The notes below the pieces were generated by a model. That model made no database searches, was not told the DNA's origin, and was given only the letters and a program-made list of their open reading frames with translations. The position numbers and the translations under genes were made by a program. Below, in pieces: positions 19,513 to 64,000 of a stretch of 64,000 bases of DNA; within the stretch, counting starts at the first letter, position 1, and every line of letters starts with the position of its first letter. The stretch comes from Chthoniobacteraceae bacterium (lineage in GTDB: Bacteria; Verrucomicrobiota; Verrucomicrobiia; Chthoniobacterales; Chthoniobacteraceae): contig CANIWM010000001.1 in NCBI GenBank assembly GCA_947471505.1, positions 124,001 through 188,000 of the forward strand, given 5' to 3'.

Positions 19513-19579
19513 CGTCCCGTCCCTCGTGCCGTCTGCTGCGATTCGCGGTGCTTTTAGTAAGGCCAAGCTGCTTCTCCCC

Positions 19580-19974
19580 AGCCGAGAATCTCGGCTGACG
19601 TGCCGGAGCCTCGGAAGTCCCAGCCAAGAATCTCGGCTGACGTGCCGGAGCCTCGGAGGTCCCAGCCGAGAATCTCGGCTGACGTGTCGGAGCCTCGGAG
19701 GTGCCAGCCGAGAATCTCGGCTGACGTGTCGGAGCCTCGGAGGTGCTGGCCGAGAATCTCGGCTGACGTGCCGGAGCCTCGGAGATGCCAGCCGAGAATC
19801 TCGGCTGACGTGCCGGAGCCTCGGAGGTGCCAGCCGAGAATCTCGGCTGGTGTGTCGGAGCCTCGGAGGTCCCAGCCGAGAATCTCGGCTGACGCGCCGG
19901 AGCCTCGGAGGTGCCAGCCGAGAATCTCGGCTGACGTGTCGGAGCCTCGGAAGTCCCAGCCGAGAATCTCGGCT
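19580..19974. repeat. 42-bp tandem hairpin array, 10 palindromes
   Basis: Ten copies of a palindrome with 7-bp arms, AGCCGAG-AAT-CTCGGCT, recur every 42 bp with a conserved 25-bp link (GACGTGCCGGAGCCTCGG and variants). Copies differ at one to three bases, for example AGCCAAG in the second and GGCCGAG in the fifth. Because 42 is a multiple of three, the array is open in several frames on both strands and creates spurious ORFs. It is not a CRISPR array: the links are as conserved as the palindromes. The array ends about 180 bp before the XRE regulator's stop and begins about 235 bp upstream of the copy-A start. Confidence 0.9.
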
Positions 19975-20168
19975 GACGTAGTCCCGTCTCTGAGCCATCA
20001 GAGACGAACAAATCCCCGCACCACCGCGCCGGTTTCCCGCCATTTCCCAACCCCTGCCCGCCCCGACCAGACGCCCCGACCGCGATTCCGCGGACAGTTT
20101 GAAGTGCGATGGCGAAGCGTTTGTGCATGGGGAAAGAAAGCCACAATCGCCGTTCGCGGTCACTGACT

Positions 20169-39638: not shown

Positions 39639-41939
39639 TTATTGGTTGTGTGTGGAGGTGACAAATCCGGCCCAATAGGAATCGCCAGATTTCCGGGAGA
39701 GCGAAACTTCCGTTTGCTTGCCATTCATGTCGAAGGTGTCGCCAAACTGGCAGCGGAAATACACGACATCCTGCGCGTTGGTGAATAGTTGGACAGTGCC
39801 AGCGGTGCTGGGGTTATCTATGAATTGGTAACTGTTCACGTTCGCACCGCTGCTGTTTATGCCCATGACCACGATGGTGATGCGTCCGGGATTCGCGATG
39901 TAGCGGAGGAGAAAGCCACCGTTCGTTGCGTCGCGCTCCAGAGTCCCCCTGTCATAGCGGGCGACGACGTGGTTTGCCGCTGGGCTGCGCGATTGAATGC
40001 GCCGGGCGACAGTGCCGCCATCCGGAGGTTCGGTAGTGCCGGTCGCGCTTCCATTGAGGATGGTGCCGTTGATCGTGGCGTTGCCGGTGAAGGTATTGGT
40101 GGAGGCGTTGAGCTTCGGGATATTGGCAGAGAGCAGGGCGTCGGAGACGGTGCCGGTGTCGAGGTTCGTCGCGCTCAGGCCGGTAAGCGCCGCGCCGCTG
40201 CCGCTGAAGGTGCCGACCGTCGTTCCGCCGAGCGTGAGGCCGCTGGCGAGTTTCGTCGAATCCACGGCATTGTTGTTGAGCTTGGCGGTGCTCACGGCGC
40301 CGTCGGCGAGTTTCGGGCCGGTGATGGCGGCCCCGGCGATTTGGGAAGTGCCGATGGTCTGGTTGGCGATTTTTGCTGAGGTTACAGCACCGTCGTTGAG
40401 CTTGAGGGTCGTCACAGCCCCGTCGTTGATTTTCGCGACGGTGACAGCGCCATCCGCGAGCTTGGCGGTGGTCACGCCGGCGTCGGCGATTTGGGACGTG
40501 CCGATGGCTTGGTTGGCGATTTTTTCAGCAGTGACACTGCCCGCAGTGAGGCCGGCTCCGTTGAGATTGGTGAGCGCTGCGCCGTCGCCGCTGAAAGCAG
40601 TGGCGGCGACAGTCCCGTCCACTTCCAGCTTGCTGGCAGGCGTGGTGATGCCGATGCCGACGTTGCCACCCAAGATCGCGATTTCCGAGGCGGTGAGGGT
40701 GAGCGACGCATTGAGCGTATTCGCGTCATTCACACTCTGAATCCCGACTCCTTGCACATTGCCGATTTGGGATCCGGGGCGGACCAGCAAGTTTTCGTCC
40801 GCACCGGTGTGGACATGGAATTTGTTTAACGGCGTAGTGCCGATGCCGACGTTGCCGGCGAACGTATTCGTGGCACCGGTGAAGCTCTGGGTAGCGCGGT
40901 TTAAAAGGGCGACGTTTGCGGAGAGGCGCAAGTCGGCGACGGTGCCGGTGGAGAGGTTCGTCGCGTTCAGCGCGGTGAGTGCTGCGCCGCTGCCGCTAAA
41001 GGTGCCGCTTGTCGTGCCGGCGAGCGTGAGGCCGCTGGCGAGTTGCGTGCTGCCGATGGAGGCTGCCGTGATATTTCCGCCGCTGAGATTTGTGAGCGCG
41101 GAGGCATTCAAAGCGGGCAGTGCGCCGGTGAGGTTTGCCGCAGAAAGCGCGGTGAGTGCTGCGCCGCTGCCGCTAAAGGTGCCGCTCGTCGTGCCGCTGA
41201 GCGTGAGGCCGCTGGCGAGTTGTGTGCTGCCGATGGAGGCTGCGGTGATATTTCCGCCGCTGAGATTGGTGAGCGCGGAGGCATTCAAAGCGGGCAGTGC
41301 GCCGGAGAGGTTTGCCGCTGAAAGCGCGGTGAGCGCCGCGCCGCTGCCGCTAAAGGTGCCGCTCGTCGTGCCGCCGAGGGTGAGGTTGTTGGCGAGCTTT
41401 GCGCTCGTCACCGCGTTGCCGGCGATTTTTGCAGAAGTAACGGCGCTCGCCGCGAGTTGCGAGGAGTCCACGGCTAGGTCGGCGATCTTCGCGGAGGTGA
41501 CGCTGCCATCCGCGAGGTAGCCGCTTGGCGCGAGGCGCTGGTCCGGGGTGAGGAGTTGGTTGCCGTTCACGCCGTCATTAAACCAAACGCGGAGGCGGAC
41601 ATCGCCATTGGCCCAGACGCTGGCGGGGATGGCGGCCATATTGGCCACGCTCGTGTCGCCGAGCAGGACGGAGTAGAGGCCCTTCGTCACCGTGAGGGAG
41701 ACGGCGGTGTCCGGCACGCCGTCGGCGGGCGCGACGTCTGCGGAGCTGCCCCAATAAGTCGTAGTGCCCGCCGTATTCACGAGGGCAAAGCGGAACGAGC
41801 CAGCGCCCTCAAAGTTCACCGTGCTGACGGCGACGCGGCCTTGGTAGTTGACGAGGGATGGAGTCTGCGCCGAAGCGAGCTGCGGGAGCAGGAGCGTGGA
41901 GATGAGGCCGGCGAGGATGAAGCGATTGCGAGTTTTCAT
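39639..41939 (-). CDS. Secreted tail-fibre-like repeat protein
   Basis: This 766-aa secreted protein (signal MKTRNRFILAGLISTLLLPQ, LASAQ) starts with a conserved module (LVNYQGRVAVSTVNFEGAGS, RLRVWFNDGVNG, LLTPDQRLAPSGY) seen in Verrucomicrobiota cell-surface proteins. It then has long runs of short units such as SAKIADLAVDSSQLAASAVT and LADGAVTVAKINDGAVTTLK, a trimeric tail-fibre-like pattern. A 177-bp (59-aa) unit beginning LSAANL repeats between 40960 and 41375. The C-terminal ~100 residues resemble a globular domain. It could be an adhesive fibre on the cell or sheath. Gene order with the 38718-39623 and 41982-42476 genes suggests one operon, all exported. Confidence 0.75.
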   Translation of the reverse strand: MKTRNRFILAGLISTLLLPQLASAQTPSLVNYQGRVAVSTVNFEGAGSFRFALVNTAGTTTYWGSSADVAPADGVPDTAVSLTVTKGLYSVLLGDTSVANMAAIPASVWANGDVRLRVWFNDGVNGNQLLTPDQRLAPSGYLADGSVTSAKIADLAVDSSQLAASAVTSAKIAGNAVTSAKLANNLTLGGTTSGTFSGSGAALTALSAANLSGALPALNASALTNLSGGNITAASIGSTQLASGLTLSGTTSGTFSGSGAALTALSAANLTGALPALNASALTNLSGGNITAASIGSTQLASGLTLAGTTSGTFSGSGAALTALNATNLSTGTVADLRLSANVALLNRATQSFTGATNTFAGNVGIGTTPLNKFHVHTGADENLLVRPGSQIGNVQGVGIQSVNDANTLNASLTLTASEIAILGGNVGIGITTPASKLEVDGTVAATAFSGDGAALTNLNGAGLTAGSVTAEKIANQAIGTSQIADAGVTTAKLADGAVTVAKINDGAVTTLKLNDGAVTSAKIANQTIGTSQIAGAAITGPKLADGAVSTAKLNNNAVDSTKLASGLTLGGTTVGTFSGSGAALTGLSATNLDTGTVSDALLSANIPKLNASTNTFTGNATINGTILNGSATGTTEPPDGGTVARRIQSRSPAANHVVARYDRGTLERDATNGGFLLRYIANPGRITIVVMGINSSGANVNSYQFIDNPSTAGTVQLFTNAQDVVYFRCQFGDTFDMNGKQTEVSLSRKSGDSYWAGFVTSTHNQ

Positions 41940-46241: not shown

Positions 46242-46355
46242 GGCGTGGATGGGCTAAAACTGGCGGGCGCTGGCGACGAAGGCCCGTCCCCGAGACGGCC
46301 TTGCGCGGGCGGTAAAATGAGCGACTTCTCTATAGAGCGGGCAAAAACCGGCGCT

Positions 46356-46607
46356 GGGCTGACCCGGCCCACCGCTGGGCTGACCCGGCCCACCACTGGG
46401 CTGACCCGGCCCACCGCTGGGCTGACCCGGCCCACCGCTGGGCTGACCCGGCCCACCGCTGGGCTGACCCGGCCCACCGCTGGGCTGACCCGGCCCACCA
46501 CTGGGCTGACCCGGCCCACCACTGGGCTGACCCGGCCCACCGCTGGGCTGACCCGGCCCACCACTGGGCTGACCCGGCCCACCGCTGGTATGACCCGGCC
46601 CACTGCG
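46356..46607. repeat. 21-bp tandem hairpin array, 12 units
   Basis: Twelve near-identical units of 21 bp (GCTGGGCTGACCCGGCCCAC and variants such as ACTGGGC). Each contains a short hairpin TGGGC-TGACCCG-GCCCA. The unit length is a multiple of three, so GLTRPTA-type and VGRVSP-type ORFs appear on both strands; these are artefacts. The array lies about 115 bp upstream of the copy-B start, matching the position of the 42-bp array relative to copy A. Variants occur at one or two positions per unit, and the last unit (GGTATG) is diverged. Confidence 0.9.
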
Positions 46608-57282: not shown

Positions 57283-57390
57283 AGTAGCTCGCGAGTCCCT
57301 TCGCGGCTTTGCGACTCCCGCGAAGCGGCACGAATTTATAAGTGTCGCTTCGCGAGTCGTGTAGTGCCGCGAAGGGACTCGCGGGCTACT
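57283..57390. repeat. REP/BIME palindrome upstream of the RAYT gene
   Basis: A ~108-bp inverted repeat: left arm CTCGCGAGTCCCTTCGCGG (in 57283-57307), right arm CCGCGAAGGGACTCGCGGG (in 57366-57390), with an inner hairpin of CGCGAAGCGGCAC and GTGTCGCTTCGCG around AATTTATAA. It starts at the Gfo/Idh stop codon. It is the same element as 58141-58249, so RAYT is flanked by two copies in the same orientation-symmetric layout. Confidence 0.88.
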
Positions 57391-57453
57391 TTCTTTTTTG
57401 CGGGCTACATTTTTCTCGCTCCCGCTCCGCTGCCGAATTATCGAAATCAAACT

Positions 57454-58125
57454 ATGCCGCACGGATTCTCCTTCATCCGCAAAGACATCGCCGTGGAAAA
57501 AAGCCAGCGTTTCCTCCCTCACTGGGAACAGCCGGATGTCTGCTACTTCCTCACCTTTCGCACGGCGGATTCCATCCCGGCGGGCATCCTCAGCGAGTGG
57601 AAAAGCGAACGCGATGCGTGGCTGCGCGCTCACGGCATAGACCCCGGCATCGACGACTGGCACTCGCGCATCGCCAGCCTGCGGGACGACGAATCCGCCA
57701 TTTACCACGCCCGCTTTTCCCGCCAGATGCAGGAGTTTCTTGATGATTGCCACGGCGACTGTCTCTTGCGCCGTGCGGACCTCCGCGAGATCGTCGTCCG
57801 TGCGCTGCGGCATTTCGACGGCGAGCGTTACCGACTCGGCGGCTTCGTCGTCATGCCGAACCACGCGCACATCCTCGTCCAACTCATCGGCGAGATGCGG
57901 CTGAAAGGCGTGGGCTTTTCGTGGAAACACTTCACCGCCCGCGAAATCAACAAAGTGCTCGGCGAGGAAAAGTGCGAGCGCTTCTGGCAGGCGGAGACTT
58001 ACGACCACATCGTGCGCAGCGAAGCGCAGTTTCATCACTACCGAAAATACATTGCTGAGAATCCGCTCAAGGCTCGGCTACGGGAGAATGAGGCGAGCGT
58101 GTACCTGCCGGAATTGGAAAAGTAG
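57454..58125 (+). CDS. REP-associated tyrosine transposase (RAYT)
   Basis: This 223-aa transposase belongs to the Y1 family related to IS200/IS605 TnpA. It has the HUH-type motif VVMPNHAHILVQL (His137-Ala-His139) and the C-terminal helix with the probable nucleophile: SEAQFHHYRKYIAENP (Tyr199 preferred). RAYTs bind and move or shape REP palindromes. Its flanks, 57283-57390 and 58141-58249, are such palindromes, with short spacing (63 bp upstream, 15 bp downstream), making a natural BIME-RAYT-BIME cassette. ATG 57454 begins MPHGFSFIRKDIAVEKS; upstream in-frame codons lie in the repeat and are excluded. A single further element at 45173-45333 may be a past product. Confidence 0.92.
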   Translation: MPHGFSFIRKDIAVEKSQRFLPHWEQPDVCYFLTFRTADSIPAGILSEWKSERDAWLRAHGIDPGIDDWHSRIASLRDDESAIYHARFSRQMQEFLDDCHGDCLLRRADLREIVVRALRHFDGERYRLGGFVVMPNHAHILVQLIGEMRLKGVGFSWKHFTAREINKVLGEEKCERFWQAETYDHIVRSEAQFHHYRKYIAENPLKARLRENEASVYLPELEK

Positions 58126-61829: not shown

Positions 61830-64000
61830 ATGAAGCCGATCAATCTCAAACCCTCATCATGGCAACAATTCCTTAAGTCTCTCAAAAAGCGCGAAGTCGC
61901 CGCTTTGCCGCTGGGGAAAAAACCGACCATTCAGCCGGAGGTGCTGGAGAACCGTATCGCGCCTGCGTCGCTGGCGTCGCTTTCGAGCGGTAGCATCACG
62001 GTGAGCGGCGATCAGGGTGCGGCGGGGGAGGTGGAGACGCTCGTTTTTACGATCGTTTCGGGGGATCTTTACATCACGGATGCGACGCATTCCATCACGG
62101 CGGGCTCGGGCTTTACCCAGAATGGCGGGAATGAAGTGTACATCGCCCTTTCGTCGCTGACCGATGACTTTACGGTGAACACAGGCACCGGCTCAGATAC
62201 GGTGACTTTTTCGGACGCGCTGAGCCTTCCGGGCCATGCGGATATTACGAGCGGCGGGACGGTGACTTTTGGCAATACGCTGACGCTTGCAGCGACGAAA
62301 AATCTGACGGTTTCTTCGAGTGGTCTGATCTCGGCGAGCGGTGCGCTCACGGTGCCTGGGACGGCGACGTTTGCGGCAGGTTCAGCGAACGACATCACGC
62401 TGGGCGCGGCGAATGATTTTTCGACGGTGCTCATCACGAGCGGCAACAACGTCTCGGTGACGGATAGTAATGCGCTGGTGCTTGGCGCCTCGACGGTGAG
62501 CGGCACCTTGGGCGTGACGACGAGCGGGGCGCTGACGCAAAGCGGCGTGCTAAGTGTGACTGGCGCGGCGACGCTGGCGGTGGGCTCGGGGAACAACCTC
62601 ACGCTGGCAAATCCGGCGAATACTTTCAGCACGGTGACAATCACCAGCGCGAACAACGTCTCGCTCGCGGATGCGGATGGGCTCATCCTCGGAACCTCGA
62701 CCGTGAGCGGCACGCTCGACGTGGCGACGAGCGGGGCGATCACGCAAAGCGGGGTGGTGACGGTGACGGGCGCGACGACGCTGGCGGCGGGCTCGGGGAA
62801 CAACATCACGCTGAACTCGGCGAATGATTTCTCCACGCTCGCCATCACGAGCGGCAACAACGTCTCGGTGACGGACAGCAACGCGCTGGTCCTCGGGGCA
62901 TCGACGGTGAGCGGGACGTTGGGCGTGACGACGAGCGGTGCGATCACGCAGAGCGGGGCGTTGACGGTGACGGGTACGGCGACGTTTGCGGCGGGCTCGG
63001 GCAACAACATCACGCTGAATTCCGCAAACGATTTCTCGACCTTTGCTGTGACGAGCGGAAACAGCGTCGCGGTGACTGATGCCGACGCGCTGATTTTGGG
63101 CGCTTCGGCGGTGAGTGGAACATTGGCCGTCACGACGAGCGGCGCATTGACTCAGAGTGGCGCGGTAGCTGTCACCTCGACATCGGCGCTCGACTCGGGC
63201 GAGGCGTTGATTACGCTCACGAATGTCGGCAATAACTTTGGCGGGGCGGTCGCGTTGACGAATAGCGCCGCGAACAATGTTTCCTTGGTGAACAGCGTGG
63301 CGCTCAGCATCGCGACGAGCAGCGTCGGCACGGGAACACTCTCGCTGACAGGTGCAGGGATTTCGCAGACGGGAACCATCACGCAGGCTGCGTCCGCTGG
63401 AGCGGTGACGCTCACGGGCGGTAGCGCGGCGATCAGTCTGGCGCTGGGTAATGATTTTACTGGAGCAGTTACGGCCTCCACGTCGGGCGCGGGTGCTGCA
63501 ATTACCATCAACGACGCGACGGGCGGACTGGACGCGGTCTCGGTGACGACGACAGACGGCGCGATTACGCTCAGTGCGACATCGGGCGACTTGACTGCGA
63601 CGACGGTTACGGCTGGCGGATCGAGCCGCAACGTTTCGCTCACCACCACGACAAGCGGAAACGTGCTCGTGGATAGTGTGACCGCCTCGGGCGACACGGT
63701 GACGATCAGCTCGGCGGAAAGCATTGAGGAGTCGGGCGCGGATGTGGGTGCGGATGTCACGGCGAGCACGCTTTCGCTGACAGCGGCGACCGGCATCGGC
63801 GCGGCTGAGGTAATCGAGACTGCGCTGAGCAACCTCTCGGCGACTTCGACGAATGGCGGCATTGATCTCGTAAATGCGGGGGCGCTGAGCATCACGAGCT
63901 TGGCGGCTTCGACTTCGGGAAATATCACGCTGACGAACACGGGCAGCATTGCGCTCGCCGGTAACGTCTCGGCGGCCAGCGGAACTGTTTCGTTCACTAC
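61830..64000 (+). CDS. Giant repetitive surface protein (filamentous-haemagglutinin-like), partial
   Basis: A continuous frame from ATG 61830 runs to the right edge (723 codons) with no stop, so the protein is longer than the window shows. The N-terminus MKPINLKPSSWQQFLKSLKK, then KREVAALPL and VLENRIAPAS, has the LE-R-AP motif of giant Verrucomicrobiota/Planctomycetes surface proteins and no classical signal peptide. From about residue 50 it is a Ser/Thr/Gly-rich beta-helix of the haemagglutinin/autotransporter sort. Units near-identical over 68-69 residues begin STVSGTLGV at about 62490, 62697, 62901 and 63105 (STVSGTLDV, SAVSGTLAV). Later parts (LTAATGIGAAEVIETALSNL) resemble FhaB repeats. 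It is probably an adhesin or sheath protein. Confidence 0.85.
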   Translation, partial: MKPINLKPSSWQQFLKSLKKREVAALPLGKKPTIQPEVLENRIAPASLASLSSGSITVSGDQGAAGEVETLVFTIVSGDLYITDATHSITAGSGFTQNGGNEVYIALSSLTDDFTVNTGTGSDTVTFSDALSLPGHADITSGGTVTFGNTLTLAATKNLTVSSSGLISASGALTVPGTATFAAGSANDITLGAANDFSTVLITSGNNVSVTDSNALVLGASTVSGTLGVTTSGALTQSGVLSVTGAATLAVGSGNNLTLANPANTFSTVTITSANNVSLADADGLILGTSTVSGTLDVATSGAITQSGVVTVTGATTLAAGSGNNITLNSANDFSTLAITSGNNVSVTDSNALVLGASTVSGTLGVTTSGAITQSGALTVTGTATFAAGSGNNITLNSANDFSTFAVTSGNSVAVTDADALILGASAVSGTLAVTTSGALTQSGAVAVTSTSALDSGEALITLTNVGNNFGGAVALTNSAANNVSLVNSVALSIATSSVGTGTLSLTGAGISQTGTITQAASAGAVTLTGGSAAISLALGNDFTGAVTASTSGAGAAITINDATGGLDAVSVTTTDGAITLSATSGDLTATTVTAGGSSRNVSLTTTTSGNVLVDSVTASGDTVTISSAESIEESGADVGADVTASTLSLTAATGIGAAEVIETALSNLSATSTNGGIDLVNAGALSITSLAASTSGNITLTNTGSIALAGNVSAASGTVSFT
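62490..63308 (+). repeat. Four ~204-207-bp coding repeats in the surface protein
   Basis: Repeats begin at about 62490, 62697, 62901 and 63105, each coding for the order TVSGTLGVTTSGALTQSG, LTVTGTATFAAGSGNN, NDFSTLAITSGNNVSVTD, NALVLGA with a few substitutions. The DNA copies share most bases, so they were duplicated recently or are kept alike by gene conversion. The fourth copy diverges after ALTQSGAVAVTSTSALDSGE. Confidence 0.8.

Follow-up and report, generated by a model that had tools for sequence, protein, structure and literature searches.

An N-terminal motif and a C-terminal domain with matching distributions in large proteins of the Chthoniobacteraceae point to an uncharacterised route of surface-protein sorting

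How giant repeat proteins that carry no signal peptide reach the cell surface in Verrucomicrobiota and their relatives is an open question, and it is raised directly by a gene at the edge of a contig from a Chthoniobacteraceae bacterium. The window, by which is meant the whole stretch of 64,000 nucleotides that was analysed (G000:C1:124001-188000, from the host genome G000 of 6.07 Mb in 153 contigs), contains on its forward strand an open reading frame at 61830..64000 which runs without a stop codon to the window edge, giving 723 residues. In the sequence-only reading this frame was taken to be the edge of a giant surface protein, open over 2.1 kb and bearing an N-terminal LE-R-AP motif (hereafter the tag), with a stop codon soon past the edge named as the refuting result. 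No such stop occurs in the 794 further bases that lead to the end of contig C1 at 188794; in other words, the frame crosses the edge and reaches 988 residues in total. The contig ends within the gene, so that the 3' end is absent from the assembly and extension of the contig does not give the C-terminus. Nor was a second contig carrying this 3' end recognised in G000, the nine matches there to the C-terminal domain described below being in other tagged genes. The counterpart in a congeneric species (G006, locus L095) likewise stops at a contig end, and truncation of both genes in this way is expected for repeat-rich genes in short-read assemblies. The features of the locus are as follows.

61830..64000, + strand: start of the gene for a giant tagged surface protein, with no stop before the window edge or the contig end
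61830..61937, + strand: 36-residue leader ahead of the tag (MKPINLKPSSWQQFLKSLKKREVAALPLGKKPTIQP), rich in lysine and without a hydrophobic signal core
61938..61967, + strand: N-terminal tag, here EVLENRIAPA (consensus in the family: [IV]E(P)LExRIAPA)
62289..62492, + strand: repeat unit 0, 68 codons
62493..62699, + strand: repeat unit 1, 69 codons
62700..62903, + strand: repeat unit 2, 68 codons
62904..63107, + strand: repeat unit 3, 68 codons
63108..63311, + strand: degenerate fifth repeat unit
62289..63194, + strand: DUF5649 stretch, beta-solenoid model of 302 residues, pLDDT 96.1

That the complete product is a giant surface protein is well supported by a full-length paralog with the same N-terminus, which has 5772 residues and contains DUF5649, PATR, LamG and FG-GAP domains; the leader of the window frame is common to this paralog and to the orthologs. 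Searches with the window protein against solved structures, and further searches of a plasmid collection and of Rfam, gave no match, and a scan for promoters and terminators stayed at chance level.

The repeats begin some way behind the tag. TRF places a tandem repeat at 62337-63142 (period 204, 3.9 copies, 76% matches), and a repeat search returns four 290-nt copies at spacings of 207, 204 and 204. In the best register, four units span 62289-63107 with identities of 63-80% in DNA and 51-79% in protein. The earlier description of ~68-residue units alike at the DNA level is borne out, the unit near 63105 being a degenerate fifth copy of 34-35% protein identity. The repeats are those of Pfam DUF5649 (PF18886), matched in six stretches with a score of 231 bits, the cut-off being 25 (E 1.1e-69). 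A survey of fibrillar adhesins counts this domain among the stalk domains (PMC8286594). AlphaFold2 predicts an all-beta solenoid for 302 repeat residues (pLDDT 96.1, pTM 0.90). With this model Foldseek gave no match at E <= 0.001, and VIA-align returned solenoid and S-layer proteins with Z up to 16.6, matches which reflect shared repeat architecture only.

As to the age of the array, the synonymous divergence Ks between units is 0.43-0.94, as against ~0.16 between the window frame and its G006 ortholog over 760 aligned codons, the latter figure being an average over a mosaic, with 0.40-0.61 across the repeat blocks and zero after them. The array is therefore not recent, and the repeats cannot be called young as had been proposed. 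The first 55 residues are kept in the G006 ortholog (71% amino acid identity), after which comes an unrelated segment, ~380 residues longer, before the repeats resume; the tag region thus behaves as a separate module. The identity of the two genes in DNA is patchy. From 62940 to at least 64481 (1.54 kb) the window gene is 100% identical to the G006 gene at the end of its contig, the DNA of leader and tag is 84% identical, and at the other loci compared between these genomes identity ranges from 86% to 99.7%, a pattern which would fit either recombination or shared assembly sequence.

Other repeats lie elsewhere in the window. There are clean tandem arrays of 42 bp at 19577-19979 (9.6 copies, 93%) and of 21 bp at 46352-46603 (12 copies, 96%), and a 177-bp tandem repeat at 40969-41396 (2.4 copies, 94%), the low-complexity, GC-rich unit of which looks like that of a further gene of beta-strand repeats, encoded on the minus strand. 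The frame at 57364-58125 looks like a transposase of the REP-associated (Y1-type) kind, and the frames that flank it on either side contain similar short sequences (RRDSRAT).

The tag is by far the more general feature. In the window frame, VLENRIAP occupies residues 38-45 (61941-61964) and no hydrophobic N-terminal stretch precedes it; the observation of a LE-R-AP motif without a classical signal peptide is borne out here and extends to 22 proteins in G000 and to 15 genomes. The pattern LE-x-R-[IVL]-A-P-A has these 22 matches in G000 and none in the reversed control, and every one is N-terminal, at 4-44 residues from the protein start, in proteins which span 422-5772 residues when the truncated window frame is left out. 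In a set of 85 distinct tagged proteins, drawn from eight genomes, the consensus is [IV]E(P)LExRIAPA, in which E at -2, L, E, R, A, P and A never vary (85/85) and I hardly does. Since the E at -2 lies outside the search pattern, its conservation was not selected for. Across genera the tag is conserved at the protein level and its codons vary. The tagged proteins are, moreover, poor in cysteine, at 0.10% as against 1.00% in neighbouring frames. Their composition, the FG-GAP, PATR, LamG and Calx-beta domains among them and the exported isomerase encoded beside some of them (see below) together suggest an extracytoplasmic location.

Of the 21 tagged proteins of G000 that are full-length, nine share a domain of ~155 residues at the other end, a tenth being doubtful; in leave-one-out searches, run with HMMER --max, nine of the ten were recovered at E 8e-20 to 2e-50. 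Scans of four proteins with the domain gave no Pfam match over it, and comparison with solved structures gave chance-level matches only, to enoyl-CoA hydratases at E about 0.4. The domain is new, in the sense of previously unmodelled. Over all loci compared it ends a median of three residues from the C-terminus, and the tag is carried by 50 of the 54 5'-complete frames with the domain, a proportion which carries some bias, since the tag itself was used to fetch many of the loci, those of G014 having been fetched by the domain. The sequence-only reading had expected a C-terminal sorting signal or autotransporter domain; many relatives do end in a shared domain, albeit this new one, and no barrel or sorting model matched in those scanned. 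Going by its paralog only, the window gene presumably ends in the same way.

The distributions of the two elements are the same. Among 40 genomes of the family the tag occurs in 15 (G000, G001, G005, G006, G007, G008, G009, G011, G012, G014, G016, G018, G022, G026 and G028) and the C-domain in exactly these 15, with neither in the other 25. The split falls inside one genus, G002-G004 being without tag and C-domain, and the single matches to the tag pattern in G002 and G024 encode FE, not LE. With the genomes taken as independent, such agreement would have a probability of 2.5e-11, a value which is a yardstick only, as the genomes are related and do not represent 40 independent events. In a scan of 387 genomes of the phylum, the C-domain was present in G000 alone and in none of the 386 others, and outside the family the exact tag pattern has 0-2 matches per genome, near the reversed control. 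The matching distributions point to an uncharacterised export or anchoring of surface proteins.

Two gene neighbourhoods recur across genera. In seven genomes a gene for an exported cyclophilin-type prolyl isomerase (PF00160) lies directly upstream of a tagged gene with the C-domain, overlapping or abutting it. In G000, G001, G007, G008, G014, G016 and G018 a tagged gene lies directly upstream of genes for a beta-barrel porin (BBP2) and a Wzc-like protein, usually with a Wza-like protein as well; G009 apparently has the same arrangement of tagged gene, porin and Wzc, the 5' end being cut by a contig end. In tag-free genomes where this slot is readable, the same porin-Wzc-Wza set occurs without the tagged gene. 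The polysaccharide operon is therefore a partner of some tagged proteins and not the tag machinery, and the Wzc of the adjoining operon was rejected as a candidate for the latter because its orthologs are also present in tag-free genomes. Short tandem repeats which encode peptides also lie close to these polysaccharide operons in G000 and G014 (L220 167-598, LGESPVTQPDSWAD; L223 11942-12256, ANRKERSAIGDPET).

The reading preferred here, at a probability of roughly one half, is that the window frame begins one gene of a class found throughout the genome, whose products are large surface proteins, poor in cysteine and rich in beta structure, with the tag in place of the Sec signal. The tag, behind its short leader, would be a sorting signal read by dedicated machinery, which would export the tagged proteins to the outer surface or anchor them there. 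Within the exopolysaccharide layer or close to it, the solenoid may then serve as a stalk or matrix, and the co-encoded exported prolyl isomerase may aid folding. More tentative is a family-specific form with two ends, in which tag and C-domain together would deliver large beta-rich proteins, ~8 to 25 of them in each genome, to the surface, neither by Sec and autotransport nor by canonical type I secretion, and of which the LEPR-XLL tags and the ME-x-R-xx-PA tag of another bacterium would be relatives. Against the preferred reading, the C-domain is present in just nine or ten of the 21 tagged proteins of G000 that are full-length, and among the family genomes no transporter, peptidase or anchor was found which follows the 15/25 pattern.

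The main rival, itself unlikely, is type I secretion, in which a divergent ABC-HlyD-TolC system would read the C-terminus and the tag would be a retention or maturation element of the LEPR-XLL kind. It would account for the missing N-terminal signal peptide and for acidic, nearly cysteine-free and beta-rich proteins, at least three RTX-like GGxGxD motifs occur in 16/85 tagged proteins, the C-terminal domain is conserved, and LEPR-XLL-type proteins are encoded in the same genome. Against this, the HlyD profile TIGR01843 is over its cut-off in 3/15 tag genomes versus 6/25 tag-free ones (G000 itself being below the cut-off at 1.4e-28), and 11/15 tag genomes have no match even at 1e-20. Canonical type I secretion, in other words, does not track the tag, and the HlyD distribution, taken from a profile of canonical adaptors, makes the type I route less probable. 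The earlier suggestion of an unusual export route gains circumstantial support from this absence of canonical HlyD in most tag genomes, together with the lack of a Sec signal.

That the tag is instead a cleavage or attachment site, used after Sec export through an unrecognised signal, is improbable. Its strict APA ending does resemble a processing site and beta-rich sequence starts directly after it; however, 34 of the 85 tagged proteins have fewer than 15 residues before the tag, so that a Sec signal peptide would not fit there, and a hydrophobic core is missing in 79/84, any hydrophobic stretch being present in only 5/84. By comparison, all 12 of the prolyl-isomerase and porin neighbours checked have a hydrophobic N-terminal core. 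A further possibility, that the frame belongs to an ordinary repeat gene of the cytoplasm, has no function or arises from misassembly, might be supposed from a contig that ends inside the gene and from the 1.54 kb shared with another species' contig end. It is largely refuted by an ortholog and a paralog with the same N-terminus, by a tag conserved across genera with varied codons and by the Pfam match.

For the preferred reading of a tag that directs proteins to dedicated machinery, the invariant motif, the matching C-domain and the clean split among close relatives provide a phylogenetic profile with which the machinery may be sought, just as PEP-CTERM led to EpsH (PMC1569441). The two recurrent neighbourhoods, of prolyl isomerase and of porin-Wzc-Wza, are the first leads in this regard. 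At about 420-600 residues, the smallest of the tagged proteins are short enough for direct localisation.

With respect to known systems, the window repeats belong with the DUF5649 proteins (PF18886), and the tag and C-domain lie outside the definition of that stalk-repeat family. From classical autotransporters the tagged proteins differ in that no hydrophobic core, and hence no Sec signal, precedes the tag, and no C-terminal beta-barrel was matched in the 5772-residue paralog. PEP-CTERM/EpsH is alike in that a short terminal motif is there too found on many otherwise unrelated surface proteins, is present many times per genome or not at all, and is linked to exopolysaccharide genes (PMC1569441). 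In PEP-CTERM, however, the motif sits at the C-terminus, on proteins of which nearly all possess a Sec signal peptide (PMC1569441), whereas here it sits at the N-terminus of proteins that lack a Sec signal; the combination of PEP motif, helix and basic tail is absent from the C-termini of the 21 relatives read.

Of the Pfam and NCBIfam models for such tags, neither PF07595 nor NF012209 matches. Planc_extracel (PF07595), which its name marks as a short motif from the extracellular proteins of planctomycetes, has no match in G000 even at E 10, nor to the tag peptides tested, and NF012209, a model of 24 positions, matched none of seven tag peptides. Its matches in G000 are to two other genes with LEPR-XLL-like N-terminal tags and no signal peptide, L037 (G000:C22:67152; LQPLEDRLLFSA, over the cut-off) and L038 (G000:C17:20533; ESLEPRITFST, below it). 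A related tag, LLLEQMEDRTTPANF, also starts a DUF5649 frame of 4267 residues in a MAG labelled Kuenenia (L096, frame from 974). The LEPR-XLL family marks very large proteins. LEPR-XLL/LEPR-8K (NF012209) shares with the present tag a LE-x-R motif near the N-terminus without a signal peptide before it, and differs in that the tag here ends in IAPA rather than in an LLS-type sequence, is limited to one family and is paired with a new C-domain. Most likely, the N-terminal tag and the C-domain constitute a surface-protein sorting system which is, in form, related to the LEPR-XLL tags.
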